Part shown: positions 12,600 to 58,289 of the stretch, in pieces
Layout of the letters: every line of letters starts with the position of its first letter
How positions within the stretch are numbered: the first letter of the stretch is position 1
Source: Defluviitaleaceae bacterium
GTDB taxonomy: Bacteria; Bacillota; Clostridia; Lachnospirales; WRAX01
Length of the DNA stretch: 64,000 bases
NCBI GenBank assembly: GCA_009780415.1
Contig: WRAC01000001.1
Location: forward strand, 62,001-126,000
Direction: 5' to 3'
Notes under the pieces: generated by a model
Database searches by the model: none
What the model was told of the DNA's origin: nothing
What the model saw: only the letters and a program-made list of their open reading frames with translations
Position numbers and translations under genes: made by a program

Positions 12600-12632
12600 A
12601 TGTACCCCTCCTGTTTTAATATATTTCTCAAT

Positions 12633-12863
12633 TTACCTCCACCCGCCCATTATCACGCCGTTTACGATAATAACCCTGTCACCGGCGGCGGGAACATAGG
12701 ACTTTAGGAATTTGTAAGCTTTCTGTGAATTACCCGTCTCCCCGGCAAAGCGCAGAAACGGCTGTCCGGAAACGACGGAGGCCACAGTGGCATATTGCAC
12801 ATCGATCCCCGTATTCCTTTGTCCATTATTGAGCATTTTGCCATATTGCATATCCGATGTCAC
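12633..12863 (-). CDS. Small phage structural protein
   Basis: 76 aa, GTG start overlapping the end of the upstream gene. Sequence contains VQYATVASVVSGQPFLRF and GDRVIIVNGVIMGGW, a beta-rich pattern like OB-fold/tail-spike-tip accessory proteins (DUF2577-like position), but I cannot assign a family. Its place between the hub candidate and the fibre suggests a baseplate part. Confidence 0.5.
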   Translation of the reverse strand: MTSDMQYGKMLNNGQRNTGIDVQYATVASVVSGQPFLRFAGETGNSQKAYKFLKSYVPAAGDRVIIVNGVIMGGWR

Positions 12864-13981: not shown

Positions 13982-13990
13982 CGCCCTCTA

Positions 13991-16015: not shown

Positions 16016-16030
16016 ATCATGCTGAGCTAT

Positions 16031-16231
16031 TTACTCCACTCCCCTTATCACAAGGCTTGTGTGCGCTGGATCCTCATTAGCACTTTCCATCAGCCATTCA
16101 CGCAACGTCAAAAGCTGGATTTCATCAAATTCTTTAAGTATTTTCAAAACCTCCGCGACCTCCTCCAGCTCATCTAAATAGTATTCTAATCTTGTACATA
16201 ACGCATATATTTCCTCGTTATTTTTGTACAC
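16031..16231 (-). CDS. Small acidic phage protein (tail chaperone position)
   Basis: About 66 aa from a GTG preceded by GGGAGG (the 94-aa ORF is over-extended into the upstream gene). Acidic, helical, Leu-rich (YYLDELEEVAEVLKILKEF). It sits directly after the tail-tube candidate, where tail-assembly chaperones usually lie, but nothing in the sequence proves this. Confidence 0.5.
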   Translation of the reverse strand: MYKNNEEIYALCTRLEYYLDELEEVAEVLKILKEFDEIQLLTLREWLMESANEDPAHTSLVIRGVE

Positions 16232-16244
16232 ATTTACCTCCCAT

Positions 16245-16856
16245 TTAATATTCGGATTCTTCGTTACCAAAAAAATAAATCTGAAAAGGCGGTTTCGTTT
16301 TATCAAAAAACTCACCCGAATGCGGGATAAACCGAATTTTTATTCCATTTTCGGTTTCTTGCCTAGCGTCGAAGCTTATACCGCCGACATTTACCGCATT
16401 CCGCAGCTCTATCGCGATAAGCCCCCCATTGCTCAAATCACCTATCCATACGAGATTCTCAACATATTGATTTAAAAGTATCTTCCGTATGTCCAGCACC
16501 GCCATATTCAATTCCTGACTATCTATAACCGAATTCGGTAAGAAGCGTGTTAATATATCCGGCGCAAACTCCGCCAATGTTGCGGAAAGTTCAATATCCC
16601 ATCCCCGAATCACTGTTGAGTTAACCGAACCAAATAACTCGCCATCCTCCCTATACCTACGAAAGACAGGCTGGGAGCGGAATACAAAGCCGTCCCTTGT
16701 CGCGCCTAAGAAATTTTCACCGTCCGACAGCAATTCGTTTATTCTTTCCTTAACATCCGCAACTCTCTTCAGATCCCGCAAATTAAAATCCGAAAAAAGT
16801 AGTCCGGCGTTGATTTGCAGCCTTTTATGCGTTTCCTTACTTGTAAATTTCAGCAT
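16245..16856 (-). CDS. Phage tail-tube/major tail protein candidate
   Basis: 203 aa. Starts MLKFTSKETHKRLQ behind AAGGAG. Contains RGWDIELSATLAEFAPDILTRFLP, a layout seen in Firmicutes tail-tube-type proteins, in the usual position after the head-tail joining genes. Assigned mostly from gene order. Confidence 0.45.
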   Translation of the reverse strand: MLKFTSKETHKRLQINAGLLFSDFNLRDLKRVADVKERINELLSDGENFLGATRDGFVFRSQPVFRRYREDGELFGSVNSTVIRGWDIELSATLAEFAPDILTRFLPNSVIDSQELNMAVLDIRKILLNQYVENLVWIGDLSNGGLIAIELRNAVNVGGISFDARQETENGIKIRFIPHSGEFFDKTKPPFQIYFFGNEESEY

Positions 16857-16865
16857 TTTTTCTCC

Positions 16866-17273
16866 TTATCCCGATTCGTCCGTATAACAGCTCAAGGTAT
16901 AGTAAAATATCCGGTCCTTTGACAAGTTATCTGAATTCGGTTCCGCCTCGGTAAATTGTCTTGTCCTACCCAACCGAATATAACCGAATCCATTTGGCAG
17001 TTTTATCATTACCCCTTCCGCTGGAAACGCTCGCGTAATCTGCGCAATTAAATCATTAATGATTGTAAAATCCTCCGAAAAGGTATAAATTACGGCCTTT
17101 TCACTGCTCTTACCAAATATCTGGCACGACGAAATCGTATATGTAATATAAGGTTTTTTAATGCCTTTAGGCACGTAATTCTGTACAAAAGCCGGAATCC
17201 CGAATCCATTCCAAAATTCATGTAATGCATTCGCAGCAGCGCAAAAAACCGAATTTATATTACTCATCACCAT
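16866..17273 (-). CDS. Phage head-tail connector (tail completion-like) protein
   Basis: About 135 aa. Reads FWNGFGIPAFVQNYVPKGIKKPYITYTIS, typical of tail-completion (gp17/DUF3168-like) proteins whose N-terminus has Ala-rich helices followed by PYITY. It overlaps the end of the upstream gene, and several in-frame ATG/GTG codons (17276-17267) make the exact start uncertain. Confidence 0.5.
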   Translation of the reverse strand: MVMSNINSVFCAAANALHEFWNGFGIPAFVQNYVPKGIKKPYITYTISSCQIFGKSSEKAVIYTFSEDFTIINDLIAQITRAFPAEGVMIKLPNGFGYIRLGRTRQFTEAEPNSDNLSKDRIFYYTLSCYTDESG

Positions 17274-17652
17274 CACCGCCTCCCGGCATTTCAGTTTTTA
17301 TTACTCCGCACATTTGTAGCTTCAAGCCTGATATATCAGGCGTCACGCGCGATTCAGGATTCGTCAGAATCCTGTATGTAGAGCCATCCCCAAGCCTTTT
17401 CACAAAATCGTCGAATACCGGAATTTCATAATCCATGCCTCTTTGTATGTACAACGAGTATCTTTCCGCTACATCCACTATTTGACCAACCGAATTTGTT
17501 CCATTGCCGCTTACTTCTTTTTCCCTCGACAATGTGATAGCCGCCCGAAATATCGGCCCTTTTTCCCACGATACCCTGATTACGCCGTCAACCGATTTTT
17601 CAATAACCCTTGAATATAACCGAAAATCCTCGGTAAAATCTGCTAAAGCCAA
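17260..17652 (-). CDS. Phage head-tail joining protein candidate
   Basis: 130 aa from a TTG preceded by GGAGGG. Contains KGPIFRAAITLSREKEVSGNG and TYRILTNPESRVTP, a pattern like the minor capsid/stopper (DUF6751-type) proteins found after the capsid in SPP1/PBSX-like phages. Position supports a role in closing the head. Confidence 0.45.
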   Translation of the reverse strand: MALADFTEDFRLYSRVIEKSVDGVIRVSWEKGPIFRAAITLSREKEVSGNGTNSVGQIVDVAERYSLYIQRGMDYEIPVFDDFVKRLGDGSTYRILTNPESRVTPDISGLKLQMCGVIKTEMPGGGDGDE

Positions 17653-17703
17653 CCTATCCCTCCTATCTCAAGTGAAGGGGCTTTTTACAGCCCCCTCAGA
17701 CAA

Positions 17704-18153
17704 TCAAAACACGTGCAACAGCGGATCAGACATCTTCCGGTATCTATTCAGACTTTTGGCAAACTCCGTTTCCCAGCTGCCTCTGCCCTTTTCAACCGTA
17801 TAACGGTATTCACCGAATTGCTCCGATAATATATTTCCTTTCGGTGATCTCTTACCGAATTCTTCAATTTCGGTTACCAACTCCAAAAAATCTATGGGAA
17901 TATTCAACCGAAAAGCTGATGTATAAATTCGGTTAACTGTTTTATTGAGCGTAAAATATGATTCTTCATCACTTTTATAATCTTTGTGCAATATGTACAC
18001 CGAATTTCTATCAACACCTGCAAGGTAAACATAATCACCCGACTGAAAATCTTCCGATAATTTAATCTTTCCGTCCTTCACCACAATTTCACCGTTAACA
18101 CAGTAACCATCCCAAAACATGTTCCGTACTTCGCGCATAATCGTCAAAAGCAT
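17704..18153 (-). CDS. Phage head-tail adaptor candidate
   Basis: About 149 aa. Reads MREVRNMFWDGYCVNGEIVVKDGKI, then a C-terminal region rich in Lys/Arg. GGAGG precedes the ATG at 18153. No clear family; assigned to the connector group by location just after the capsid gene. Confidence 0.45.
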   Translation of the reverse strand: MLLTIMREVRNMFWDGYCVNGEIVVKDGKIKLSEDFQSGDYVYLAGVDRNSVYILHKDYKSDEESYFTLNKTVNRIYTSAFRLNIPIDFLELVTEIEEFGKRSPKGNILSEQFGEYRYTVEKGRGSWETEFAKSLNRYRKMSDPLLHVF

Positions 18154-18187
18154 CAATTTGCCTCCTTTTCACTGTTTAAAAAGGTGT

Positions 18188-19138
18188 TTATTGTATAGTA
18201 TGCTTAATTTCGATCATACCAATGTTCTTATTCTCATGCACGCGGTTCCAGTTTACGGGATTACGAAGTTCCGCATTTGAAGGTGATTCACCAGAAACAA
18301 CCGCTCCGGTAAACGCAATTCCAAGCGGATGCATGATTAAGGCTTTACGTGTAATGAGGTAATCTTCGCTCAATAACGCGCTTCTGCTCACTTCAACCGG
18401 TGTCATATCCACAGGCGTTCCGTCGCCGCGTCCAATAGCCCCTTCTGCCAGAAGATATGTAGAGAATACTTTCCCCGCTTCGTCATATTGCACAGAATCA
18501 TCCACAATTACATCATACCCAAGATACTCAGCAATCCTCGCTCCTGTAGACGGCCGCATAAACGTGATCAAATCCTGCTTCTGCAAGCTCGTATACACCG
18601 CGCTGTGCATCACAATCGCGTGTAATTGACCGAATACGTCACCGAGTAGCTGCTTTGCGTCAAGCACCATTTCCGCGTTAAGCGCCCCCGGATTAGCCGC
18701 GCCGAACACATGCCCGGACATCCCAGGAGACGCGAAAGCCCCTGCCAGTGAGGATACCAGCACTTTCTGCTCATCGCGTACCCAATATTCCGCAACCATT
18801 TCCGCAATCGCCGCAAGCGCGCTGTCTCCCGCTATCGCGGACGCCAATTCCCTAATACTCCATGCCGCGGCGCGGAAATTAATTGCCGCCACATCGGCCC
18901 GAGCCGTCACAGGCGTTGGGTTTAAGGCTCCCGTCATGCTTAAAACCTCACTGTCAACCGAAATTCGGTTCCAATAAGGCATATTTACGGTACGCCCTCC
19001 CCTACTGGCCAAATTCGCCAGAGCCTCTGAATTCACTACCGCTCCCGACCTTATCAAAGGCGATTTTTCCGCCACTTTCTCACGCACATAAGCCGCAAAT
19101 ACCGTGGGTTCAATTATTTCATTGATTTTATTAATGAT
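18188..19138 (-). CDS. Phage major capsid protein
   Basis: About 316 aa. Motifs include REKVAEKSPLIRSGAVV, RTVNMPYWNRISVDSEV, GLHAIVMHSAVY-like QLHAIVMHSAVYTSLQ and AEYLGYDVIVDDSV, matching the HK97-fold capsids of Clostridial siphoviruses. The ORF track starts at an internal GTG (19087). The only good ribosome site, GGAGGAG at 19150-19144, is followed in frame by ATC/ATT at 19138/19135 and then NKINEIIEPTVFAAYV, the family N-terminus, so a non-AUG start is likely. The gene is GC-richer and nearly free of AACCGAA words. Confidence 0.85.
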   Translation of the reverse strand: MINKINEIIEPTVFAAYVREKVAEKSPLIRSGAVVNSEALANLASRGGRTVNMPYWNRISVDSEVLSMTGALNPTPVTARADVAAINFRAAAWSIRELASAIAGDSALAAIAEMVAEYWVRDEQKVLVSSLAGAFASPGMSGHVFGAANPGALNAEMVLDAKQLLGDVFGQLHAIVMHSAVYTSLQKQDLITFMRPSTGARIAEYLGYDVIVDDSVQYDEAGKVFSTYLLAEGAIGRGDGTPVDMTPVEVSRSALLSEDYLITRKALIMHPLGIAFTGAVVSGESPSNAELRNPVNWNRVHENKNIGMIEIKHTIQ

Positions 19139-19175
19139 ATATACTCCTCCAATATTTTTATTTAACCGAATTCGG

Positions 19176-19790
19176 TTAAAGCTTTACACCGGCTCTCAAA
19201 GCCATCTCGGTGGCTGAAACGGGATTTTCCCTATAAATCCGGGTTTGCTCATCCAAATTCGGTTTATCCCTGCTCCAGGGATTATTATTCGGTTTTGTAA
19301 TTGCCGGCCTCAATGCTACTTCGGCCTTTTCAAACATCACATTACCGAAAGCGTACGGATATTCGGTTTTGAGTGATTTTATTTTTTCGGTTAAAAGCTT
19401 TTCGGTTACGTTGTAATCATAACCGAATTCTTTATCATCAAAGCACAGCTCTTTTTTCAACAGCTTAATAAAATGCGGATTAGCCCCGCCAGCCTCAAGC
19501 GCCTTTGACATTTCTAAATCCCGCCGTTCCAACGTTTCGGCTTCTTCCCTAACCTTATCCATCTCCTCAAATTCCGTTATCCTGTTTGCGGCGGTGGAAA
19601 ACTCTTCCCTGACGGCTGCGAAATCCTCATTCAACGCACATAACTCGGCAAGCTTCTCCTTGTAGAGTTCCTTACGTACAAATCCATCGGATATCAACTT
19701 CGCAATAGCCTGGGAAACCGCTCCCATAGCCGGTTCCTCAACTTCTTTACCCAATATGCTTTTAATGTTTTCAATTACTGCGGATCCCAT
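19176..19790 (-). CDS. Phage scaffold protein
   Basis: About 204 aa from ATG 19790 (AGGAGGTACT). Charged, helical and rich in Glu/Lys/Ala, with EFEEMDKVREEAETLERRDL; the C-terminal third contains NNPWSRDKPNLDEQ, seen at the end of phage scaffolding proteins. Located between portal and capsid, as expected for an internal scaffold. Confidence 0.75.
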   Translation of the reverse strand: MGSAVIENIKSILGKEVEEPAMGAVSQAIAKLISDGFVRKELYKEKLAELCALNEDFAAVREEFSTAANRITEFEEMDKVREEAETLERRDLEMSKALEAGGANPHFIKLLKKELCFDDKEFGYDYNVTEKLLTEKIKSLKTEYPYAFGNVMFEKAEVALRPAITKPNNNPWSRDKPNLDEQTRIYRENPVSATEMALRAGVKL

Positions 19791-21117
19791 AGTACCTCCT
19801 GTTTTTAAAGTCAACCGAATTTTCGGTTAATCTCAAAATCTCATCGATCCTGGATTCGGGTATCAACGGATTTAGTTCCAATGCGGTACGCTGATCTATA
19901 TCCGCGCGCATCTTGTAGATATTGCTTATGGTTTCCGCATCGTTAATCAGTGACCTGCGCCTAAACGTTATATTAACGGGCTTTTTGAGATTCAAAAATT
20001 TTAAGATCCCGGCGACGAAGCTCTCAGCCTGCCACTCGAACATATCGGCCTTCAAATCCAATTCGGTCATAGCCGCCTTAATCGCGACATTTGTCAGCCC
20101 GCCGCCGCTCAGTTCCTCGGTGTCAAGCGTTTGCGTCTCCTTGTACATTTGTCTCTCAAGAAGCCTCAAAGCCTCACTGCGCGCGGCATACGGGACATCG
20201 ATGGTCTTTATCTGCGCGCCCGAATCCCCATCCGTATAAATCGTCCGGTACTCCTCAATTTCCTCAATCAATTGCCTAAGATTCGCTCCGCCGTAGTTTT
20301 GTACGACATAGTAAATATCATTCGCACGATCCAGATTATCCCCAAAATCCGACATTATCCGGTCATACAGATCAATATCGTTCTTTAGCCCGCAACTCAG
20401 ATAACTCTCCTGATTGTCGTTCCCATATAGGGCAATAACCGGTAAAACCGAATATTGATCCACCGAAATTTCGGTTATTTCATCACCGGATTTTATAACT
20501 TTTCGGTAGTATGGCCGTTTCTCAGCCTCCAACCGAATTTCATCATTGTTTATCCGATAAACCGAAATTCCATCTATCTCAAAAACCTCAACAAACATAG
20601 GCTTTTTCGCGTCAGCCTGGTAAAACCGCATTCCAATCTTAACTTCTGACGTACGCTCATCGTTTAATCCAAAGAATTCGGTTGCATACATCGGAATAAC
20701 CGAATCACCGGTCCAGAATCCCCAGCAGCACCCGTCAATCAGCGCATGCCTGCCAATCCGCTGTAATGAAACGTCGAAATCCGCGCCCAGCCTCTCTTTT
20801 ACGTCAGCGGGCAAACTTGCCCCATTCCCAAGCAAGTACATGCAAAGCTGATTCACGCTTTTGGCAAAAAACCCGCAGCATTTTCGGTTAGCCGGCTTTG
20901 TAACCCTTTTATTCGTTTTATTCGAGTCTCCTATAGTCAAAACCTTCGCTCTTTTACTCATAATTTCGGTATTTTTTCGGTTGTAATATGCGCGCGCGAT
21001 TATCGCGTGTCTAAACATTTCCGAATTTTTATAATCAGTCACCGAATTTTTAATAAAGTTCAGCTTCGCGGTTTCACCTTCGGCGCAAGCTTCAAGCCAG
21101 TCCTGGTATGTATTAAT
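19771..21117 (-). CDS. Phage portal protein (SPP1 gp6-like)
   Basis: About 448 aa. The sequence FFAKSVNQLCMYLLGNGASLP and later ELSGGGLTNVAIKAAMTELDLKA are hallmarks of the SPP1-type portal (PF05133). It forms the dodecameric ring through which DNA enters the head. The track start (GTG 21042) has no ribosome site. TAGGAGGG at 21121-21131 is followed in frame by ATT (21117) and NTYQDWLEACAEGE, the family N-terminus, so I place the start at this ATT. It overlaps the scaffold start by 20 bases. Confidence 0.85.
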   Translation of the reverse strand: MNTYQDWLEACAEGETAKLNFIKNSVTDYKNSEMFRHAIIARAYYNRKNTEIMSKRAKVLTIGDSNKTNKRVTKPANRKCCGFFAKSVNQLCMYLLGNGASLPADVKERLGADFDVSLQRIGRHALIDGCCWGFWTGDSVIPMYATEFFGLNDERTSEVKIGMRFYQADAKKPMFVEVFEIDGISVYRINNDEIRLEAEKRPYYRKVIKSGDEITEISVDQYSVLPVIALYGNDNQESYLSCGLKNDIDLYDRIMSDFGDNLDRANDIYYVVQNYGGANLRQLIEEIEEYRTIYTDGDSGAQIKTIDVPYAARSEALRLLERQMYKETQTLDTEELSGGGLTNVAIKAAMTELDLKADMFEWQAESFVAGILKFLNLKKPVNITFRRRSLINDAETISNIYKMRADIDQRTALELNPLIPESRIDEILRLTENSVDFKNRRYYGIRSN

Positions 21118-21131
21118 AAAATCCCTCCTAC

Positions 21132-22319
21132 TTAAATAATTCTCATAGTTCTAACAAAGTACCTCAAGGCGTCACAGGCATGGTCATTTTCCTTTTTAGG
21201 CTTTTCCGTACTCTCATTGCCATCCCATGCATATTGCACAATTTCATTCAGCAGACGTCTACACTTTATGTGTATTTTAACCTGTCCCAAACTTAACGCA
21301 GAAGCCGTATTTCTTATACCCGCAATAATCTCATTGTCGGCCCTTTTTACTGCATATTCGCCCTTTTTCCGTATTAATTGTATAAAAGAGGCCGCCGACG
21401 GATCAATAATAATACAGTCTATACCGCAATTGTTTCTTTTGGTCAATTTGCATAATTTGTCATAATACTCCTCGTCTGTACACGCCATCCCCGATTCGCG
21501 CCCGCTATGATAAAATTCGTCTATCGCAACCCATTTTCCATCTTTACAACCGAATAATAACATAACAGTTGCGTTCTGTATTCCGTAATCAACCGAAATT
21601 ACATATCGTTCGTACTTTTCATCAATTCGGTCAATAATATTTTCTTTACCGAATTTCGGGTAAACCATGCCATCCGCCGCTGTCCATCTGCCCTCAATAT
21701 ATCTGCCGTAATACACCGTGCCCTCATATTCTTTTTTCAATTCCGCCACAAAGCCGCTGTTAAGATACGGATTGTCATCAATATGAAAATATTGCACAAA
21801 AGCAGCCGATTTATCCAAAAAACCTTTCAACCAATGCCCCGGCCCCTCAGGATTACAGGTGCCGTCGAAACGGCTGTATGGCTTATCCAGCCTGGATTTC
21901 AGCAATTCAAATACCTCTCTGCCCCACTCCGCGACTTCGTCTCCATACACATATTTAAAGCTTGCCCCACGCAATTTTGCCATCTGTGCGTTCTTTTCAG
22001 CGCCAATAACGTACACTGTCTCATTAAACAACTTGCACATATTCCATCCATCAACTTTATGCACCATTTCTTCTCCATAGACTTCCCGCATTGGCGCTAA
22101 AATGTTGCGTTCAATGCTCCCCACGGTGACGCCCATAATGCAGGTAAGTCCCGGAAGTCCTGTTCTTATGCGAATCTGTTTAGGAATAACATGCCTGATA
22201 TCAACAAATGTCTTCCCGCTGCGCGTAGCGCCCACCTTAAAATTCCATCTCTTATCGGCATCCCGTATGTACGAAAGCTGTTTTTCCGTAAGCTTCCCAA
22301 CCCCATCAATCTGTTTCAT
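21132..22319 (-). CDS. Phage terminase large subunit (PBSX type)
   Basis: 395 aa from ATG 22319. Walker A KVGATRSGKTF in the ATPase domain, and nuclease-domain residues in YVISVDYGIQN and ACDALRYF near the end. It is the motor and nuclease that packages DNA into proheads through the portal. The 22361 start in the track is an extension into the small-subunit gene; MKQIDGVGKLTEKQ is the expected N-terminus. It overlaps TerS by 14 bases. Confidence 0.9.
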   Translation of the reverse strand: MKQIDGVGKLTEKQLSYIRDADKRWNFKVGATRSGKTFVDIRHVIPKQIRIRTGLPGLTCIMGVTVGSIERNILAPMREVYGEEMVHKVDGWNMCKLFNETVYVIGAEKNAQMAKLRGASFKYVYGDEVAEWGREVFELLKSRLDKPYSRFDGTCNPEGPGHWLKGFLDKSAAFVQYFHIDDNPYLNSGFVAELKKEYEGTVYYGRYIEGRWTAADGMVYPKFGKENIIDRIDEKYERYVISVDYGIQNATVMLLFGCKDGKWVAIDEFYHSGRESGMACTDEEYYDKLCKLTKRNNCGIDCIIIDPSAASFIQLIRKKGEYAVKRADNEIIAGIRNTASALSLGQVKIHIKCRRLLNEIVQYAWDGNESTEKPKKENDHACDALRYFVRTMRII

Positions 22320-22701
22320 TGTGCACTTTTTCCTGTACAATATCACCAAATCCACCGGCATCTGCCGTCAAAGCCGCTGCTTCCTCATCCATTTTAAGAA
22401 TACCGTCAAGCACTTCAAGCGCTTGATACATTGATTTTTCAGCTCTTTCCCGCTCCAGCCTCTCCAGCAAATACGCCGACATCGGTTTGCTTAATTTTCC
22501 AGTAATACCGCCTTTCTCCAAATTTACCTCTTTTTGGTTTTGTAACTTTTCCACTGCCTTTTTAACGCCTATATGCTCCTCCGCAAGCTCAAGCAGCTCC
22601 CCGTAATCCCAACCATTTTTTAAACAACATTCCTTCAAAATCGGCAATCCATCGCGGTTTTCCAATATATAATCCTCAATCCGCTTAATAATTTCCCTAA
22701 T
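22306..22701 (-). CDS. Phage terminase small subunit
   Basis: About 131 aa. Reads REIIKRIEDYILENRDGLPILKECCL, then WDYGELLELAEEH, an HTH-containing small terminase pattern, with a helical C-terminus (YLLERLERERAEKSMYQ). It recognises the packaging start and hands DNA to TerL. The GTG at 22764 has no ribosome site; GCGGGAG (22710-22716) is followed 8 bases later by an in-frame ATT (22701), a candidate non-AUG start. Confidence 0.7.
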   Translation of the reverse strand: MREIIKRIEDYILENRDGLPILKECCLKNGWDYGELLELAEEHIGVKKAVEKLQNQKEVNLEKGGITGKLSKPMSAYLLERLERERAEKSMYQALEVLDGILKMDEEAAALTADAGGFGDIVQEKVHNETD

Positions 22702-22833
22702 CTTTTTAACTCCCGCTATCTCAAAACACCCGCCAACATATTTTTTATATTTATATCTTAACACAGACCGAATGTATGTTTTTGGGCAAATTTTAACAGC
22801 CTTTAAACCCGCTCCCAGTGCAGCATCCAGAAA

Positions 22834-22858
22834 TTCGGGTAACTATAATTTACCCGAA
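22834..22858. terminator. Hairpin between early and late prophage genes
   Basis: TTCGGGTAA / TTACCCGAA inverted repeat over the stop codon of the ArpU-like gene. It may end the early - strand transcript before terS. Confidence 0.5.
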
Positions 22859-23271
22859 TAATCATAAAATTTCTTTGCAGCCGCCGACCTCTCCGTATTA
22901 ACCTCCTCCCCTATCCTTTCCCAGCTCAAGCCGTTTATCACACGCAAACGCGCTATCAACCGCATTTCCGTGTCCCCAATCTTGCCAATGGCCTTCTCAA
23001 GTTTCAGCCTTTCGCGCATAATTTTGTGCATATTCAACAACATCGCTTCTTCCAGCTCCTCCAATAGTATCATATAATCCATATACCGGTCCCTTTTATC
23101 CCACTTGCCCCCCGCACAGTTTGACAGCCATGAACCCCAGATATATATAGCTTTCTCGCGTATTTCACGCATCTCGTTCTTTAACCTCCGAGCCTCGTTC
23201 AATAACAGCGAAAGCCTCTTCCCGTCATAATCGTGATTATTGTATTTTGCGCTTTTTTTTCCTTTGTTCAA
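22843..23271 (-). CDS. ArpU/sigma-like phage late transcription regulator
   Basis: About 142 aa from TTG 23271, chosen because GGAGGTG lies six bases upstream; the 197-aa ORF is over-extended into the replication gene. The C-terminus MRLIARLRVINGLSWERIGEEVNTERSAAAKKFYDYS is a sigma-70 region 4-like HTH of the ArpU/RinA group (DUF1492-like). Such proteins switch on late genes in Firmicutes phages, and it sits just before terS. Confidence 0.75.
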   Translation of the reverse strand: MNKGKKSAKYNNHDYDGKRLSLLLNEARRLKNEMREIREKAIYIWGSWLSNCAGGKWDKRDRYMDYMILLEELEEAMLLNMHKIMRERLKLEKAIGKIGDTEMRLIARLRVINGLSWERIGEEVNTERSAAAKKFYDYSGKL

Positions 23272-23305
23272 TTTGTACACCTCCAAGCCGCGCAATTTTA
23301 ATTTA

Positions 23306-24259
23306 TTACGTAACCGCAAGGTACTCATTCGCCTTTTCCTCAATAAGCCGGCCAATCTTCTCATAATCATAATCATGACTTTCAAATTGCGGAAATTTGC
23401 TGTTCCATGTGCTGACACGCATATTTTTTCCAACACTTATGTACTTTTTGCCATTCTTAACGCCATTTTCCATCCAATCTTTAAGCACTGTGCATATATA
23501 TGCCAAATTAAACTTGTTGTAATCCATCGAAGTATCTATAGCCAATTTAATTGTTTCCGCGGGAAACACGTCCAGCCATTTAGTCAGCACCACGCACATT
23601 CTCTCCCTGGTTACGCAATCAACCGAATTCGGTAACAAGCCATTAATTTCCGCGGCGCGTGAATTCGTTTTCGTTGTCGCCGTCCCGGCCTTCTTCGAAG
23701 AAGAAGACGATTTACTTTCATTTACTTTACTTTTCTTTACTTTACTTTGTGTACTTCCGGTACCTTTTTCATCATTTCCGGTACCGGAAATTCGGTTTCC
23801 GGCACTGGAAATTGTTTCATAATGCACCTTTTTTTGAATAGATTTCGGAACAATTTTTATGTTGTCAACCGAAATCACTACATATTCCTCAATTAAACAT
23901 ACCAAATCCCTCTTAGCACAAATTCGCAGAAACCGCTCCTGTATGCCCCTTGAGGTTAATATTCCATGCTCCTCATATACACTTTTGTCAAACAGCTCTT
24001 TCTCCATGCAGTATTTCACAACTTTCGCAACAAAATCACCTTTACAGCCCCCGCCGATTCTTTCCGCCAAAATAAACGCGTCCTCATCACCGAATTCAAG
24101 GTAATACCCTTCTCCCCCATAAATATCACACAACAGCGCCAAATAAACACTTATAGCCTCAAACCCGAATTTATTTTTCAGCAGCATAATTTTTTTATCG
24201 CGGAAAATTTTAATATCCAACGGAAAATAATCCGCTCCCGTTTTTAATCCGCGCGCCAT
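23306..24259 (-). CDS. Phage replication initiator, Lin1244/Lin1753-like N-terminus with DnaD-like C-terminus
   Basis: About 317 aa from ATG 24259 (MARGLKTGADYFPLDIKIF). The N-terminal domain FEAISVYLALLCDIYGGEGYY matches the DUF4373 winged helix. After a Ser/Lys linker with repeated KVKKSKVNESKSSSSS comes a DnaD-like region ending NLAYICTVLKDWMENG. It probably loads helicase at the prophage origin. It overlaps the upstream 69-aa gene by TAATG and is the only replication gene seen. Confidence 0.8.
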   Translation of the reverse strand: MARGLKTGADYFPLDIKIFRDKKIMLLKNKFGFEAISVYLALLCDIYGGEGYYLEFGDEDAFILAERIGGGCKGDFVAKVVKYCMEKELFDKSVYEEHGILTSRGIQERFLRICAKRDLVCLIEEYVVISVDNIKIVPKSIQKKVHYETISSAGNRISGTGNDEKGTGSTQSKVKKSKVNESKSSSSSKKAGTATTKTNSRAAEINGLLPNSVDCVTRERMCVVLTKWLDVFPAETIKLAIDTSMDYNKFNLAYICTVLKDWMENGVKNGKKYISVGKNMRVSTWNSKFPQFESHDYDYEKIGRLIEEKANEYLAVT

Positions 24260-24468
24260 TATGCCACCACCATATGATTTCCAATAAAATTCCATATGTA
24301 GTTTTCAACACATTCCATACAAACGCTTTCTCCCTCAAAAATATAATACACTTCCTGTGACCCCCCATAAATCAACCTTCCGCATTCACAAACCGTCAGA
24401 TAAGCCTGCATTTCTTTCTTTTTAACCTCACCAAATTTAATACATTCTGTCAATTCCGGATGCTGCAT
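24259..24468 (-). CDS. Small Cys-rich phage protein (possible zinc ribbon)
   Basis: 69 aa. Two Cys pairs (VCECGR and CMECVEN) could hold one zinc ion. First gene of the early operon, overlapping the replication gene by TAATG. Function unknown. Confidence 0.6.
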   Translation of the reverse strand: MQHPELTECIKFGEVKKKEMQAYLTVCECGRLIYGGSQEVYYIFEGESVCMECVENYIWNFIGNHMVVA

Positions 24469-47922: not shown

Positions 47923-48759
47923 ATGATAGACAACATCAGCGCAGGCGGCCAAATCCTGCTGCTGCGCAAACGTAAGGGCTTTACGCAGGAGGAGCTGGCG
48001 GACAGGCTGGGTATCACCGCCCAGGCAATCAGCAAATGGGAAAACGGCCACGCGCTGCCGGAAACCGCGCTGCTCCCGTTATTGGCGAAGCTCTTGGACA
48101 GTACAATCGACGCGATACTGATGCCCGTTACCGTTAAAGAGGGCGACATAATGTCCTTCGGCAGCTATCAATGGCGCGTTTTGCAGGTAAACGAAGGCGG
48201 CGCCCTGATAATCACGGAAACAACCATCGGCAAGGCACCCTTCCACGACAGCCACACCGGCGTCACATGGGAGAAATGCAGCCTGCGCAAATACCTGAAC
48301 GGGGAGTTTTGCGACAAGTTTACGGACGCGGAGAAATCCCGGATAATAAAGACAAAGCTGAGCGACCGCGACAACCCCTGGTACGGCGTAAGCTGCGGCG
48401 ACCCGACATTTGACAGGATATTTCTGCTGAGCTACGACGAAGTAATCCGGTATTTCGGCGACAGCGGCGATATGCGAGGCAAAAAGGGCTGGTTCTGGGC
48501 GGAGGAAGATAAAATCGCGCCCGCTGACTGCACTTGCCGCCTTAAATACGGCGACTGCATTTTCGACCAATTCAACGATGCCCGCAAAGTCCGGAGTTTA
48601 AGGGGCGACGACGACTGGTGGTGGCTGCGCTCCCCCGGAGGGTATGGCATGCACACCGCCGGCTCAATCGGCTACTTCGGCGAGCTGTTCCTTTGCGGCG
48701 ACGATGCCTGCAGGGTGGACGGCGGCGTTCGTCCGGCCCTGTGGCTCAGCATACAGTAA
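47923..48759 (+). CDS. XRE-family regulator fused to DUF6273
   Basis: 278 aa. Residues ~8-62 XRE HTH (LLRKRKGFTQEELADRLGITAQAISKWENG). Residues ~80-278 a DUF6273 domain: SLRKYLNGEFCDKFT, WWWLRSPGGYGMHTAGS and VRPALWLSI, a formylglycine-enzyme-like fold common in Clostridial surface proteins. Here it is cytoplasmic, so it may serve as a ligand-sensing part. GGAGGAG upstream. Targets unknown. Confidence 0.85.
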   Translation: MIDNISAGGQILLLRKRKGFTQEELADRLGITAQAISKWENGHALPETALLPLLAKLLDSTIDAILMPVTVKEGDIMSFGSYQWRVLQVNEGGALIITETTIGKAPFHDSHTGVTWEKCSLRKYLNGEFCDKFTDAEKSRIIKTKLSDRDNPWYGVSCGDPTFDRIFLLSYDEVIRYFGDSGDMRGKKGWFWAEEDKIAPADCTCRLKYGDCIFDQFNDARKVRSLRGDDDWWWLRSPGGYGMHTAGSIGYFGELFLCGDDACRVDGGVRPALWLSIQ

Positions 48760-48969: not shown

Positions 48970-50031
48970 TTACCGCGGCAAAAACTCAGTTGCCGCGGTT
49001 GAACCCGATTCAATAACGCTGACCTTGACGCCCGTCAATAATTCGCCGCTATGGTTGCCTACGTACAGATAATACTCCCCGTCTAAATTAACATCCCGGC
49101 CGGCAGACGGGATTGTATTGATGTAAGGGCCTTCATAGCCATACATATAAGTCGTGTAAAAATACCATTGGCCTGACTGAGACACTCTTTCAGCGTATTC
49201 ACGCCTCAGCCCGGAATATATACGGAAGCCGGAACCGGACTCCGAAGTCACTTCCACAATGTACGAATTATCGCCGCCCATAACTACCTTTGCGACGGGA
49301 AAGGCTTCCCCCGGCGCTATTTCCGCAATATACGCCCCGTCAGAAGCGGTGCCGTCGCCGGGCGGTGAATGGTTAATCCGCCCGTTCGGATGGAAGGTAG
49401 AAAGCGTTACGGTCACATTGCGCAGCCCGTCACTTGGGCTTCCTATGTAAACATAAAAGCTCCCCTCCTGAACATTGCGCGCCGCGACACCGGCGTTGCT
49501 TAACGTGTGGCTTACCTCATAGCCCGGGCTAAGCGTCAGATTGCCCAGATACCAGGGGCTGCCGCTCAATGTCATGATATCGCCGTCCTTAATCGCGCCG
49601 GCAAAGAACGCTCCGACCGTTTCGGAATATATATGGATTTCGTATTCAATATCATCATAAAGCTCTATTTCGGCGATGCGGATCAGCTCACCCGGGGCAA
49701 TATGGTCAAAGCTCAGGTGAAGTATATTAAGACTCCCCCTCAATTCCGCCATCTGCCTATATCTTTCTTCGGAAAGCTCTATAAACCTGTCACGTAATTC
49801 ATTAAGCTCCCTCTCCCTTTCAAGCAGCTCCAGTTCCCTTTCAAGCAGCTCCCTCTCCCTTTCAAGCAGCTCCCACTGCCTTTCAGATAAGCCGGGCGGC
49901 TCCGGCGCGGCTCCGAGCGCCTCAACCTGAGCCGGGCTAAAGTTAAAGCCGATCAAAAGCCCGGCGGAGACGACAGCCGCCCCGATCAGCCCAAACAGCG
50001 CCCTGCCGCTTTTTTTTTGCTTTTTTCCCAA
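48970..50031 (-). CDS. C-terminal extracytoplasmic part of a split BlaR1-like receptor
   Basis: Up to 353 aa from a TTG at 50031. It opens GKKQKKSGRALFGLIGAAVVSAGLLIG (basic stop-transfer plus a membrane helix), then a coiled coil of ELLERER repeats (~residues 45-95) and two similar ~110-residue beta domains (each running PGE...I/V...YVYIG or YYLYVGN). Its frame continues the BlaR1 protein, whose frame ends here: removing one A from the A9 run at 50010-50018 fuses the two. So it is probably not an independent gene. The sensor part is not the penicillin-binding domain of classic BlaR1. Confidence 0.65.
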   Translation of the reverse strand: MGKKQKKSGRALFGLIGAAVVSAGLLIGFNFSPAQVEALGAAPEPPGLSERQWELLERERELLERELELLERERELNELRDRFIELSEERYRQMAELRGSLNILHLSFDHIAPGELIRIAEIELYDDIEYEIHIYSETVGAFFAGAIKDGDIMTLSGSPWYLGNLTLSPGYEVSHTLSNAGVAARNVQEGSFYVYIGSPSDGLRNVTVTLSTFHPNGRINHSPPGDGTASDGAYIAEIAPGEAFPVAKVVMGGDNSYIVEVTSESGSGFRIYSGLRREYAERVSQSGQWYFYTTYMYGYEGPYINTIPSAGRDVNLDGEYYLYVGNHSGELLTGVKVSVIESGSTAATEFLPR

Positions 50032-50977
50032 GAATATTCAAAAACCGTTGTTTCAGCATGCGTTTCCCTCCAATAAAATTCGTGGTCAGCCGGCTGCGGC
50101 AAACCCGGCGGCCCGCGGCCATGTTCAGGAGCATTTCGCTGTATTTCTTCCGCAAGCCCATGTCCATGCCGTGTACCGTCAGCGTGTCGCAGATGGTCTC
50201 TATGTCCTTGTTGGCCTGTTTTATCATAAGGTGGACGGCGGGGTTAAACCAATGGATGCTTATCGTTATCATAAGGGCAAGCTTATACCATAAATCCCGG
50301 CGCTTGTAGTGCGTCAGCTCATGCCGGAAAATGAAACGCAAGTCCTCCTCATCACAGCTCAAGTCCGGCAGCAACACGGCAGGCTTTATAAAACCCATAA
50401 GCATCGGCGTTTTAATGCCCTTGCAGCGTTTAAGGCCGAGCGCTCTCACAATACCCATCCGCCGCGCCGTTTCGTTAAATATTTGCAAATAACCGGGGTC
50501 GGGTTCAGGCATACCCCATCTCCGCACAAAGCGCTTGAACATAAGATGGTTTGCCGCGTGGTAAGCCACGGACAGGAATATCCCCGCAAACCATACAATC
50601 CGGATCACGTCGAACAGATTGGCGGAAGACGGGTTGATTGATTCCCGCGCGGGCTCGGCTGATAAAACCGGAACGCCGCGGCTCACGGTTTCCCCGCCGT
50701 CACGCCGGGAGCCGTCCCCCGCCAAACCGGCGGTATTATTAATCCGCCGTATGTCATAGGAAGAGGCAGCCGCGGGCACCGGCACATGTATCTGAACAGC
50801 CGGCCTGGGGATAAACGAGGCGAACGGCAGGCATAAACAGCCCATCACCAATATCCACATTAAATAACGCCCGCCCGCGGTATATTTCCTTTCCAAAAAC
50901 GGCGCCGCGAACAGCAAAAGGATGATGAGCGGCGTTATTATCAGCGAAACGCTTGCCAGAGACAGCAACAGCGTCAC
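49943..50977 (-). CDS. BlaR1/MecR1-like M56 metallopeptidase, frameshifted at its C-terminus
   Basis: 344 aa. Four membrane segments; zinc-peptidase motif FRHELTHYKRRD and downstream Glu region ETICDTLTV. Classic BlaR1 senses a ligand outside and cleaves the BlaI repressor inside. The frame reaches MLKQRFLNILGKKAKKK, the normal junction before the last helix, then turns into unrelated residues (AVWADRGGCRLRR) at an A9 tract. The next 353-aa ORF supplies the helix and sensor in the other frame. Start overlaps blaI by four bases. Confidence 0.8.
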   Translation of the reverse strand: MTLLLSLASVSLIITPLIILLLFAAPFLERKYTAGGRYLMWILVMGCLCLPFASFIPRPAVQIHVPVPAAASSYDIRRINNTAGLAGDGSRRDGGETVSRGVPVLSAEPARESINPSSANLFDVIRIVWFAGIFLSVAYHAANHLMFKRFVRRWGMPEPDPGYLQIFNETARRMGIVRALGLKRCKGIKTPMLMGFIKPAVLLPDLSCDEEDLRFIFRHELTHYKRRDLWYKLALMITISIHWFNPAVHLMIKQANKDIETICDTLTVHGMDMGLRKKYSEMLLNMAAGRRVCRSRLTTNFIGGKRMLKQRFLNILGKKAKKKRQGAVWADRGGCRLRRAFDRL

Positions 50978-51357
50978 TGCGCATCACCCGCTTTTTCATC
51001 GATGAAGCTTTTTAACTCGTCAAGGTCGCGCCGCGAAATGCCGTCGCCGTTATAAAGCGACGCGACGAAGCTTTTCAGCGAATTGCCGTGCAGCCGCTCC
51101 AGAAACGACTTGCTCTCGCTTTCCAAATATTCGTCCTCGTTTATGACCGGGGCGTAATAATTCGTCTTGCCGTTTCTGTAAACGGATAAAAACCCGCGGT
51201 CAACAAGTCTGGCCAAAAAATTAAGCAATGTCGTAAGCGCCCAATCCTTCTTCCCCTCAAGCTTATTCATAATAACCGCCGACGTTGTTTCGCCGCCGCA
51301 TTTCCAAATAACCTTCATGATTTCCAGTTCCGCGTCCGGAAGCCGTGAAACCGCCAT
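50974..51357 (-). CDS. BlaI/MecI-family repressor
   Basis: 127 aa from ATG 51357 (AGGTGGGG). Winged helix: LPDAELEIMKVIWKCGGETTSAVIMNKL, then WALTTLLNFLARLVDRGFLSVYRNGKTNYYAP. The C-terminal dimer helix ends LDELKSFIDEK. It binds TACA-TGTA dyads, and two lie in its own promoter. It is cleaved or released through the adjacent M56 receptor. Confidence 0.92.
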   Translation of the reverse strand: MAVSRLPDAELEIMKVIWKCGGETTSAVIMNKLEGKKDWALTTLLNFLARLVDRGFLSVYRNGKTNYYAPVINEDEYLESESKSFLERLHGNSLKSFVASLYNGDGISRRDLDELKSFIDEKAGDAQ

Positions 51358-51373
51358 TTGCCCCACCTCATTC

Positions 51374-51424
51374 TACATATGTAAAACATATTATCATTTT
51401 ACACATGTAAAACGTATTTGTCAA
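51374..51424 (-). promoter_or_regulatory. blaI-blaR1 promoter with two BlaI operators
   Basis: - strand promoter TTGACA (51419-51424), 17 bases, TAAAAT (51396-51401). Operators TACACATGTA (51400-51409) and TACATATGTA (51374-51383), both the TACA-N2-TGTA type used by BlaI/MecI, overlap the -10 and start site: autorepression. Confidence 0.85.
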
Positions 51425-54044: not shown

Positions 54045-56000
54045 TTAATAACGTATGGTTTCGATTATATTTTTACCTTGAATCCGCGAGGCGGAATACC
54101 GCATTGTAACCCATGTCACAATCAGGACGCCAAGGGAGCATTGGATTATCGGCAGCCACGGCATAGGGAAGCCGAGTTCAACAGGCACAGCCAGATACCG
54201 GTAAACCGCATATGACCCGGCAACGCCCAGCGGCAAACCGATAACAAGGGATTTCAAGGAGCATAGTATGCTTTCGAGATTCAGCATACGGCTTAATCCC
54301 TCCGGCGTCATGCCCGCGCTCCGCAAAACCGCGAATTCGCGGGAACGGGAGCGCACGTTTGCCGATATGGTGCTGATTACGTTTGTCAGGCCTATAAGCG
54401 TCAGCATAGCGATAAAGCCGTAAATAAAAACCATGATGAGTCGGCCTATATCGCGTGTCATATCCATTTGCTCCTGGATATTGAATACGCTCAAATCCCC
54501 GAGGCTTTCATCGAACGTAAACATATCACGCAGCACGGCGCCCGCATATTCGGTAAATCCCGCCGCGTCCGATGAATTGGCGAACCATACGTACGATAAG
54601 GCGTCAAGCGCGGGAACGATGATGTTCACCATACTGTTGCTGACCCAAAGGATTTCCTTAGGTATTTCGCCTATCGAAAGCACGCCGTGCAAGGTTATGT
54701 CAAACTCATCGCCGTAATAATAATTCTTCATGCGTAATGTTTGATTGCTGAAAATCAATGGGGCGAGTATCTGCCGGCCTTCATCATGATACAGGGTAAA
54801 CTGATTTACAAGAATATTTGAACCGCGCGGCACTCCCGCCAGCCTGCATAAAGCATCATAATTTTCCGCGTCCAAAACGATAAGGCTTGCGAAGATGATG
54901 TGTTCCCGATTATCCGGGCCGAGGGGCGGGTCAAGGATTTCCCTCGTCCTTGAGTTCAGCATTTCAATCGGAACCAGCGCCCGGTACGAGTGATAATCGG
55001 CTCCCGCGCCGAATACGTCCGTATCGGGAAACTCACGCATTTTTTCCGTTATTTCGCCGGCAAGGACGCTGTTAACCGCAACATATTTCCGTTCGATTAA
55101 TTCCCAATCCTCTATCCGTCTGGCATCATAGTAAGAATAAAATTGCGCCGCCACATTTATGTCTATGCCGGGGAAGAACACGTTTGTAAGCGTGCCCATC
55201 ATCATCCCGAACGTGCCGACCACAATAAATAAAACAATGCTGACGGTCAGCGACACTACCGTTGCGCGAAAATTCCTGCGGCTTCGCTTCAATGACTTGG
55301 AAGCCAACACGCCCTCAAACCCGAATAACTTTTGGATAAGCCAATTTTTGCGGGCTTGCCCCGGCTTGACTTTAACCTCGCCCGCGACGCGTATGGCGTC
55401 AATAGCGGTCAGCCCCGCCGCTTTACGGGCCGGAAGCCATGCCGAAAGGCCTACCGTCATAAATGATATTATTACAGAAAGCAGCAATGCCTGCCACGCG
55501 ATTACAAAATCCAAAACAAGGGGCTGTTCGCTGACATTGTTAAGCCTAGTAAGAAAATAATCCACGATGCGAACACCCGTTAAGTTTACAAGCAGCCCTA
55601 AGGCTAACCCGGCAGGAATACCGATTAAGCAAAGGTAAACGCCTTCATACATAATCGTTTCCGCAATCTGTTTCTTTGTTGCGCCCACGCTTTTTAAGAT
55701 TCCGAACTGCGCCGCGCGTTCGCCCGCGCTCACCCGGAAAGCGTTCGATACGACGATGACGGACGCGGCGACGATTATGGAAACAAAAACCGCGCTCATG
55801 CCGAACAGCATTGAATTATACATATTTATGTAATATTCATTATCGCCTATCACATGCCTGAACATAGCGTCGCCGCTCGCCGCGAAGCCAAAGACCGCGG
55901 TTATCATTGCGGTGGCGAGTATAATGCCGGCAAGCGTCCACGCGGTGCGGCCCCGGCTTGATTTTATTTGGCTGTACGCCAATTTTGCCGTCAGCTTCAT
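54045..56000 (-). CDS. FtsX-like ABC transporter permease
   Basis: 651 aa. A four-helix FtsX/MacB core repeated at N- and C-ends: VVSNAFRVSAGERAAQFGILKSVGATKKQI and NVISTISANVRSRSREFAVLRSAGMTPEGL, with ~230 residues of outside domain between (330-520). Of the BceB/YtrF-type Firmicutes permeases, usually moving or sensing peptides. Overlaps the ATPase gene by four bases, with a two-component system upstream. Confidence 0.88.
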   Translation of the reverse strand: MKLTAKLAYSQIKSSRGRTAWTLAGIILATAMITAVFGFAASGDAMFRHVIGDNEYYINMYNSMLFGMSAVFVSIIVAASVIVVSNAFRVSAGERAAQFGILKSVGATKKQIAETIMYEGVYLCLIGIPAGLALGLLVNLTGVRIVDYFLTRLNNVSEQPLVLDFVIAWQALLLSVIISFMTVGLSAWLPARKAAGLTAIDAIRVAGEVKVKPGQARKNWLIQKLFGFEGVLASKSLKRSRRNFRATVVSLTVSIVLFIVVGTFGMMMGTLTNVFFPGIDINVAAQFYSYYDARRIEDWELIERKYVAVNSVLAGEITEKMREFPDTDVFGAGADYHSYRALVPIEMLNSRTREILDPPLGPDNREHIIFASLIVLDAENYDALCRLAGVPRGSNILVNQFTLYHDEGRQILAPLIFSNQTLRMKNYYYGDEFDITLHGVLSIGEIPKEILWVSNSMVNIIVPALDALSYVWFANSSDAAGFTEYAGAVLRDMFTFDESLGDLSVFNIQEQMDMTRDIGRLIMVFIYGFIAMLTLIGLTNVISTISANVRSRSREFAVLRSAGMTPEGLSRMLNLESILCSLKSLVIGLPLGVAGSYAVYRYLAVPVELGFPMPWLPIIQCSLGVLIVTWVTMRYSASRIQGKNIIETIRY

Positions 56001-56680
56001 TGGCGCACCGCCTCGTCACGGAGGATCCGCCCATCGCTGATTGTTATTACACGGTCAGCCTGCAAGGCTATGTTTTCGTCGTGAGTAATTATGATCAGGG
56101 TCTGGTTAAATCTTTTGTTGGACAGTTTCAAGAGGTCTATAACCTCACGGCTGGATTTGCTGTCAAGGTTCCCCGTGGGTTCGTCGGCAAGAATTACCGC
56201 GGGGTCGTTAATCAATGCCCTGCCGATAGAAACCCTCTGCTGCTGCCCTCCCGAAAGCTCGCCGGGCAAATGCCCTGCCCGGTCAGACAGCCCTATGGTT
56301 TCAAGGATATATTTTAACTTGCTCGCGTCCGGCTTGCGCCCGTCCAATAACCTTGGCAGCATGATGTTTTCTTCGGCGGTAAGCGTATGGATTAAGTTGT
56401 AAAACTGATAGATAAGGCCTATATTGCGGCGGCGGAATATTGCCAGCTCGCTTTCGTTTAATTTGTAAATCTCGTTGCCGTCAATTGTCACCGTTCCCGA
56501 AGTCGGGCGGTCAACGCCGCCTATAAGGTGCATGAGCGTGGATTTGCCGGAGCCGGATGCCCCGATAATCGCCGCAAACTCGCCTTTCTCAACGCTGAAG
56601 CTCACGCCGCCCAGCGCCGTGACCACCGTATCGCCTTTCCCATATGTCTTGTACAAATCTTTCACTTGTAAAACAGCCAT
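55997..56680 (-). CDS. ABC transporter ATP-binding protein
   Basis: 227 aa. Walker A GASGSGKSTLMH, signature LSGGQQQRVSIGRAL, Walker B VILADEPTGNLDS, H-loop ITHD. LolD/MacB/BceA subfamily. Forms the motor of the FtsX-like permease it overlaps. Confidence 0.93.
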   Translation of the reverse strand: MAVLQVKDLYKTYGKGDTVVTALGGVSFSVEKGEFAAIIGASGSGKSTLMHLIGGVDRPTSGTVTIDGNEIYKLNESELAIFRRRNIGLIYQFYNLIHTLTAEENIMLPRLLDGRKPDASKLKYILETIGLSDRAGHLPGELSGGQQQRVSIGRALINDPAVILADEPTGNLDSKSSREVIDLLKLSNKRFNQTLIIITHDENIALQADRVITISDGRILRDEAVRQ

Positions 56681-56768
56681 TTTTTACCTCCCCGTGTTTG
56701 ATGAAGCTATTTTAACAAACCAAAATGACTTTTCGGTGACTTTTTTTATGCCGAAAGTGACAATCCGG

Positions 56769-57620
56769 TCACTTAAAGAATTTCAGCGTAAATACAGCGC
56801 CTTGCCCATTACCGCCGCCATCTATTTCAATATCCCCGTTTTGCCCCCGCATTATCGCAAGGGCAAGAGGCAAGCCTATGCCGCAGCCTTTTTCATGGTT
56901 GGAGCCTTCAAACCGTTTGAAAAGCTTATAAATTTTATTTTTTTCTATTCCATTACCGCTATCCGTAACGGAAATCCACTTGCAGATAGGGTTTGAACCG
57001 CATTCTATGCGTATCGCGCCGCCATCAGGCGAAGCTTCCGAAGCATTTTTAATTAGGTTGGTTAAGGCTTCGCTTGTCCAGCGCCTGTCACAGGGCAATT
57101 CCGCGCCATTAACAATTTCTATTCCCTGATTTTTCACATCAAGCAGGATTTGAAGCGGTTCAAGCGCAAGGCCGATCAGTTCGTTTGACGGTATGGTTTC
57201 TGTTTTAAACTCTACGGCCCCCGCGTCAAGCTTCGCTATTTTAAGCAGCGCATAGGCAAACCACTCCATACGCGCAAGCCCCGCCTTTATATTCGACAGA
57301 AATTCCGTCTGCTTATCCGCGGGCGTTTCGCCTGCGGTGAGGGCGTTTTCAAGCAGCTCGGCCATAATCATCATTGAGGTGAGCGGCGTTTTAATCTGGT
57401 GGGAGATGTTCACAAGGGTATCGCTCATTGCGTTGCGTTCCTTTTGCAATATGTCAACCTGTTCATTTTTGCGGTATGCAAGCGTATGGATATCATTTTT
57501 GAGTATGCCCCATCCGCCCTCACGATTATCACGCAAATCAACGGATTGCCCGTCTATGATTTTACGGATATTACCGGACAGTTCCCTTACCTCGCTTTTT
57601 TTAATCCACACGGTAGCCAA
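56769..57620 (-). CDS. Sensor histidine kinase without visible membrane helices
   Basis: 283 aa. H-box LVNISHQIKTPLTSMM, N-box LTNLIKNASEAS, G-boxes VTDSGNGIEKN and GCGIGLPLALAIMRGQNG. There is a ~75-residue N-terminal region but no transmembrane segment, so it may receive its signal from the ABC transporter complex, as Bce-type systems do. It overlaps the response regulator by 20 bases. Could be 5' shortened, but no frame break is seen. Confidence 0.85.
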   Translation of the reverse strand: MATVWIKKSEVRELSGNIRKIIDGQSVDLRDNREGGWGILKNDIHTLAYRKNEQVDILQKERNAMSDTLVNISHQIKTPLTSMMIMAELLENALTAGETPADKQTEFLSNIKAGLARMEWFAYALLKIAKLDAGAVEFKTETIPSNELIGLALEPLQILLDVKNQGIEIVNGAELPCDRRWTSEALTNLIKNASEASPDGGAIRIECGSNPICKWISVTDSGNGIEKNKIYKLFKRFEGSNHEKGCGIGLPLALAIMRGQNGDIEIDGGGNGQGAVFTLKFFK

Positions 57621-58254
57621 TCCCCCTAACAGTTTCGATATTCAGCGAATCGCCAAGTTTTTCACGCAGTCTTTTGATATATACGGTCAGCGTGTTATCT
57701 TCAACGAAGCTTCCCGCCGAATCCCAAATATTCTCCAAAATTTGCGCGCGCGTAAGCAATTGCCCTCTGTGCGAGGCGAATATCAGCAGCAGACGGTATT
57801 CAAGGGCTGTTAATACAAGCAATGCCCCGTTTATATACGTTTTGCCCGCCGACACATCAATCGTGATATCCCCAACGGTTAACAAAGACGGGATTGAATT
57901 GCCGGCAGCCTCATTCAATGTGCGCTTGACCCTGGCAAGCAGCTCGCGTATGCGGAAGGGTTTGATAACATAGTCATCCGCGCCGCCTTCAAAAGCCTTA
58001 ACGATACAGGCCTCGTCATCAACAACCGTCAGAAAGATTACCGCCGTATCCGATAGCTTTTTCCGGACATCAAAGCCCGTACCGTCAGGCAATTGCATAT
58101 CCAATATCGCAAGGTCGAATTTATGGGCCGCTATAGCATTGACCGCTTCATTTACGGTCAAGCCGTGGGATACGGCGTACCCTTCCCGCTCAAGGGCATA
58201 TACAAGCCCCGACGCTATCATTCTATCATCTTCAACAACTAAAATACGCTTCAT
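57601..58254 (-). CDS. OmpR-family response regulator
   Basis: 217 aa. Receiver with Asp in LAILDMQLPDGTG (phospho-Asp), acidic pair VVEDD, Lys in YVIKPF. C-terminal winged helix ends TVYIKRLREKLGD...VRGIGYRVD. First gene of the regulator-kinase-ATPase-permease cluster; presumably controls the transporter. ATG 58254 with GGGGTGAG. Confidence 0.92.
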   Translation of the reverse strand: MKRILVVEDDRMIASGLVYALEREGYAVSHGLTVNEAVNAIAAHKFDLAILDMQLPDGTGFDVRKKLSDTAVIFLTVVDDEACIVKAFEGGADDYVIKPFRIRELLARVKRTLNEAAGNSIPSLLTVGDITIDVSAGKTYINGALLVLTALEYRLLLIFASHRGQLLTRAQILENIWDSAGSFVEDNTLTVYIKRLREKLGDSLNIETVRGIGYRVD

Positions 58255-58289
58255 CAATTCTCACCCCGTATATAAGAACGATAAATATC

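Follow-up and report, generated by a model that had tools for sequence, protein, structure and literature searches.

A BlaR1-like receptor gene put out of frame at an A9 tract in a Defluviitaleaceae bacterium, and its unfamiliar sensor

In the BlaR1/MecR1-BlaI/MecI systems, an M56 membrane metalloprotease with HEXXH...ExxxD motifs is encoded in the same operon as its BlaI-type partner, the two genes overlap, and TACANNTGTA operators are situated in the blaI promoter. A membrane helix leads from the protease to an extracellular C-terminal domain, which in these receptors is a penicillin-binding sensor with an SxxK motif. For S. aureus BlaR1, the two protease motifs have been described as HEXXH and E242XXXD (PMC9834060).

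A second group of described cases concerns genes that contain runs of adenines. In many bacteria, selection against A/T runs becomes visible at a length of nine (Baranov et al., PMC1088944), and Thermus dnaX makes use of slippage at an A9 run (PMC1088944). In C. rodentium, tssM1 is rescued at an A11 run with an efficiency of about 20-25% (PMC4256274), and the E. coli polymerase has been found to slip little on short A runs (PMC6260861). Variation in the DNA itself is known from V. cholerae, where the length of the A8/A9 tracts in wbeL and manA changes by a single base and reversion has been shown for manA (PMC3441752).

A locus that touches on both groups is present in the 64,000-nt stretch analysed here (the window), which belongs to contig WRAC01000001.1 of a Defluviitaleaceae bacterium whose 2.53 Mb genome is a draft of 85 contigs. 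On the minus strand, a BlaI/MecI-type repressor gene (50974-51357; PF03965, E=2.9e-27) probably begins with the ATG at 51357, a start that agrees with MAIPKLPDAELEIMK in the relative L084. It overlaps by four bases with an M56 (BlaR1-type) membrane metalloprotease frame (49943-50977; PF05569, E=5.4e-46, profile positions 5-296), in which three membrane helices are predicted. This frame exhibits HELTH at residues 219-223 and E260TICD264 (that is, E260xxxD264), and hence the Pfam domain, the HEXXH and the downstream ExxxD by which the M56 peptidase family is recognized. A further open reading frame (ORF) of 353 codons, opened by TTG, follows at 48970-50031 in another frame and encodes the second half of the receptor. 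Its parts are a membrane helix (ALFGLIGAAVVSAGLLIGF; 49945-50001, residues 11-29 of this half) homologous to the helix that follows the protease in the relatives L084, L085, and L083, a Glu/Arg-rich coiled-coil linker (49741-49899) for which Pfam and PDB searches returned coiled-coil-type matches at chance level only, and two beta domains at 49417-49740 and 48973-49416.

The promoter of the blaI-type gene consists of TTGACA at 51424-51419 and TAAAAT at 51401-51396 with a spacing of 17 bp. Pattern matching identified one BlaI-type operator inside it (TACATGTGTA, 51400-51409, minus strand) and a second one just downstream of it (TACATATGTA, 51374-51383, minus strand); chance alone would give 0.27 such sites in the window, and the stricter form TTTACANNTGTARA has no exact matches in the genome other than these two sites (51374-51409). 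The repressor may have no targets other than its own operon and perhaps a divergent gene for a secreted protein at 51527. Similar operators precede blaI in L083 and L084 (two each), L085, and L087. In its BlaI/MecI partner and its operators, the locus is thus organized like blaR1 and mecR1, and it would represent an autoregulated BlaI-M56 receptor operon.

It departs from these systems in two respects, namely a broken receptor frame and the nature of the sensor. On the minus strand, the M56 frame reads CTT GGG AAA AAA GCA AAA AAA AAG CGG (LGKKAKKKR...), while the sensor frame reads TTG GGA AAA AAG CAA AAA AAA AGC GGC (GKKQKKSG...). The context of the tract is GGG AAAAAA GC AAAAAAAAA GCGG, with the A9 run located exactly at 50010-50018, where the reading frame changes by +1 relative to the M56 frame. 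The two ORFs overlap by 89 bases (49943-50031). The initial annotation had described a BlaR1-like receptor split at this run, with an M56 frame that ends in noise after LGKKAKKK and a next ORF, starting GKKQKKSG, that supplies the missing membrane helix, a coiled coil, and two beta domains, and our analysis bears this description out: past NILGKKAKKK, the M56 frame continues for about 21 residues without homology before its stop at 49943, and the second ORF is open over all its 353 residues. One A fewer, as proposed there, was confirmed to join the two frames, and two more would do the same. The protease and the helix that leads to the sensor are accordingly not encoded on one chain as in BlaR1/MecR1; the helix is present, out of frame.

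That the two halves belong to one receptor is shown by relatives in which the gene is intact. In a tblastn comparison with the window, residues 26-344 of L084 matched frame -1 with an end at 50015 and residues 341-377 matched frame -2 from 50022, so that the frame change falls on the A9 tract. L085 and L083, likewise single ORFs with protease and helix on one chain, matched frame -1 up to the tract and frame -2 from the tract onward, and third-position GC switches phase at the same point. In addition, L166, an M56 receptor from another family of the order with one open frame, matched with its M56 part in frame -1 and with its beta domain in frame -2. Since L166 carries the same beta domain and the protease on one chain, their occurrence side by side is no coincidence of neighboring genes. 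Because intact single-gene relatives match one frame up to the tract and the other from there on, the M56 and sensor halves are one receptor.

As an alternative, the two ORFs could be proper genes, one for a short M56 protease and one for a sensor that has its own translation start and membrane anchor. Two-gene arrangements do exist among distant M56 genes. The M56 proteases (332-335 aa) of six examined loci in a different family of the order (L076-L080, L082) stop directly behind the fourth helix. In each case an independent gene on that strand comes next, coding for an exported protein of about 500 aa in most loci and of 186 aa in one; such pairs may be a naturally two-protein form of the BlaR receptor. 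However, the break lies after the fourth helix in these loci and before it here, and the M56 ORF of the window ends in non-homologous residues. The sensor ORF overlaps it by 89 bases, and the TTG is the sole start before the membrane helix and showed no Shine-Dalgarno sequence, which makes independent translation unlikely. Two separate genes are thus the least probable of the readings considered for this locus. A GGAGGG...ATG sequence was considered as an internal start and rejected, as it lies in the M56 frame and encodes the GGK.M motif common in M56 proteins.

Our preferred explanation, to which we assign a probability of roughly 0.7, is that a single receptor gene has been put out of frame by a lineage-specific change from A8 to A9, either as a genuine recent or polymorphic mutation or as an error in the consensus. 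In the ancestral receptor, encoded by one gene, a cytoplasmic gluzincin protease with three membrane helices would have been followed by helix four, the coiled coil, and, outside the cell, the pair of beta domains. The lysine-rich stretch before the fourth helix would then have gained one A, giving A9 where the joined frame needs A8; the ancestral run length of eight is inferred, the closest homologue being only 53% identical. Normal decoding of A9 would yield a protease without the last helix and the sensor. By analogy with BlaR1, an extracellular signal at the beta domains of the intact receptor would cause the protease to cleave BlaI and thereby open the operon. Cells with A8, or slipped transcripts, would provide this full receptor, while A9 transcripts would give a ligand-blind protease. 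Repressor, operators, protease, and sensor all appear intact but for one base, and, to judge from the lack of an internal stop in the sensor ORF, the gene has either not decayed or begun to do so only recently. A functional slippage site would likewise leave the downstream frame and the operators intact.

The distribution of A tracts in the genome, as obtained from pattern searches, is informative for several of these possibilities. There are 851 A7, 168 A8, and seven A9 tracts and no A10, corresponding to a 5-fold drop from A7 to A8 and a 24-fold drop from A8 to A9. As A9 is the longest A run of the genome and occurs in seven copies only, its coincidence with the frame break is more than would be expected by chance. 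The depletion of A9 and the absence of A10 are consistent with slippage or mutation at runs of nine. Most tracts are at or below A8, and a one-base gain from A8 is therefore the simplest history. Among the other six A9 tracts, four are clearly inside open frames, a fifth sits where an open frame begins, and the sixth is apparently intergenic; none of them splits a gene. Similarly, no long gene was found to be split at the 30 A8 tracts that were inspected, and there was no sign of splitting in 20 other ORFs tested in the window. These results indicate that the assembly is not grossly unreliable at A runs.

They also bear on the first version of the preferred explanation, a sequencing or assembly error in which the true tract would be A8 and the receptor gene unbroken. 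This version would fit a draft of 85 contigs and the fact that a single base restores a gene that is intact in all close relatives. Moreover, the M56 genes of L081 (around 1990-2010, minus strand, at a GC-rich inverted repeat) and L149 (around 3890), both from draft genomes, show isolated frame breaks that do not coincide with A runs, as draft errors would give. The four A9 tracts clearly within genes, the 30 A8 tracts, and the 20 unsplit window ORFs speak against it, and we regard an error as a tentative explanation that deserves serious weight. Somewhat more probable, and the foremost of the individual accounts although it falls short of even odds, is a genuine recent mutation or an A8/A9 polymorphism. 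The sequenced cells would then be receptor-off or ligand-blind, and the locus would be a young pseudogene or merely hypermutable. Homopolymers of eight to nine A mutate readily, the second half runs over 353 codons without a stop, and the wbeL and manA tracts of V. cholerae offer a precedent in which an A8/A9 run switches a gene off by a one-base change (PMC3441752). In contrast to those contingency loci, the tract described here is not conserved among relatives and is known from one genome, and a mutation looks the same here as a consensus error.

Conservation was examined at several levels. A homologue search of contigs with the single query protein gave no matches, and 80 loci were recovered with an alignment of two sequences. 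Nearest to the query are L084 (MAG Th196P3bin47) with 53% protease identity, L085 (Nt197P3bin72) with 46%, and L083 with about 45-48% (48% as the upper value), the last of which is one locus with L086 and L006; the genus itself is represented by one genome in the comparison set. Judging from their isolate names, the two named MAGs presumably derive from termite guts. L084, L085, and L083 share the operon, the helix after the lysine stretch, and the operator type with the locus in the window; they differ from it in being continuous through the join, with short A runs there, and in carrying other extracellular domains. At the join, NILGKTKKGAAALFIAIGAVVFAAGLLVGFNF of L084 aligns without a break with NILGKKAKK/SGRALFGLIGAAVVSAGLLIGFNF of the present locus.

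A survey of A runs covered 113 M56 segments belonging to 108 loci. At the join site, no other locus exceeded eight, a length reached by three, and only the query had nine; apart from the query, none of the approximately 108 loci exhibited a break at an A run. At least 190 residues follow the HEXXH motif in 98 of the 113 segments. The shorter segments represent proteins terminating shortly behind helix four, genes with a break elsewhere (L081, L149, L031), and matches that are spurious or in the wrong frame (L117, L123); L117 had been considered as a frame-broken M56 gene and was dismissed as a wrong-frame match. Across 294 sampled genomes of the order, almost every M56 frame among the matches listed was long. 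The conserved A run for which the initial annotation had suggested looking in homologous loci was thus not found, and its view of the tract as an evolved slippage or phase-variation site was not supported: the homologues are continuous, and mutation, polymorphism, or an assembly error fits equally well or better. Because the homologues share neither the tract nor the split, mutation or polymorphism is ranked first, consensus error second, and functional slippage third.

Functional transcriptional slippage would mean that RNA polymerase steadily makes A8 (or A11) transcripts, so that a sensorless protease and the full receptor are produced in a set ratio. As in the A9-broken ORFs of Baranov (2005) and in tssM1, an A run sits at the exact frame break and slippage by a single base restores the frame; unlike them, the present case is known from DNA sequence alone and needs the loss of one A or the gain of two. 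The use of A9 by Thermus dnaX, the selection against slippage seen at this length in many bacteria (PMC1088944), the rescue of tssM1 at A11 (PMC4256274), and the sharp depletion of A9 in this genome lend the idea some credit. Nevertheless, no homologue with overlapping ORFs at a slippery tract was found, the other A9 genes of the genome tolerate their tracts, and the E. coli polymerase, from which that of this species may differ, slips little on short A runs (PMC6260861). Steady slippage is hence considered improbable. A role of the tract in switching receptor architecture, in which slippage or A8/A9 variation would mix full receptor and sensorless protease and thereby set basal BlaI cleavage independently of ligand, is similarly doubtful. 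In a genome so depleted of A9, slippage at such a run is nonetheless physically plausible and could yield some full-length receptor; a programmed or phase-variable use of the tract is conceivable but improbable.

Ribosomal frameshifting at the lysine run has very little in its favor as a source of the joined product. The frame-0 sequence A AAA AAG is a dnaX-type -1 slippery heptamer, and sliding of ribosomes on iterated AAA codons has been reported (PMC4363877). However, joining the halves needs a +1 shift, which the heptamer does not give; a -1 shift at A AAA AAG, considered as a candidate, would lead into the third frame, where a stop follows AAGRCLG.

If the preferred reading of one receptor gene with an A8-to-A9 change is adopted, gene callers would report two genes at this locus, one of them a false short protease. 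Should slippage turn out to be true, the locus would encode a rare sensory receptor that carries its ligand domain on only part of the molecules.

The kind of receptor, M56-BlaI, and the type of frame break, at a homopolymer, are both known; the unfamiliar part is the sensor. In place of a penicillin-binding domain, it comprises a coiled coil bearing two small beta domains, which a one-on-one comparison identified as repeats of each other (E=4e-9). Neither PF00905 nor an SxxK motif was detected in it, searches of PDB sequences and NCBIfam gave no match to a BlaR1 sensor, and nothing beyond noise was obtained from Pfam (above cut-off), NCBIfam, or PDB sequences. The NCBIfam model blaR1_generic scored 115.5 bits, far below its cut-off of 400. 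These results agree with the earlier proposal of a non-penicillin-binding sensor, and the domain is accordingly predicted not to bind penicillin in the manner of BlaR1. An order-wide search found beta domain 2 in the M56 receptor L166 and in the protein L165 (E=7e-11 and 1.5e-17), the latter with 39% identity in the matched part. A profile of the beta domain searched across the class had matches in this genome only, even though L165 and L166 had come up in the order-wide search. An AlphaFold model of beta domain 2 from four sequences is all-beta with moderate confidence (pLDDT 66, pTM 0.67), and a model of the sensor from one sequence reached a pLDDT of 34. Fold comparison of the four-sequence model gave no significant hit (best E=9e-3, no credible fit).

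The close relatives of the receptor have different extracellular parts after the same helix. As this case shows, the M56-BlaI receptors of these clostridia retain the protease and the membrane part and exchange their sensors, which may be a pair of beta domains, other extracellular domains, or separate exported proteins. Consequently, many of them are unlikely to be antibiotic receptors like BlaR1.

Several other features were observed in the surroundings. An HTH regulator with a C-terminal DUF6273 domain (47923-48759) adjoins the receptor operon, and a C-terminal domain similar to DUF6273 is apparent by eye in the M56 paralogue L003 on contig C50. An FtsX-type permease, an ABC ATPase, a histidine kinase, and a response regulator lie in a row at 54045-58257, forming a Bce-like module near the BlaI operon; in L087, the M56 gene is followed by an apparent FtsX-type permease. 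Finally, a prophage region at approximately 9558-24295 of the window encodes portal, terminase, scaffold, holin, and amidase proteins together with a Kelch-repeat protein of 651 aa.
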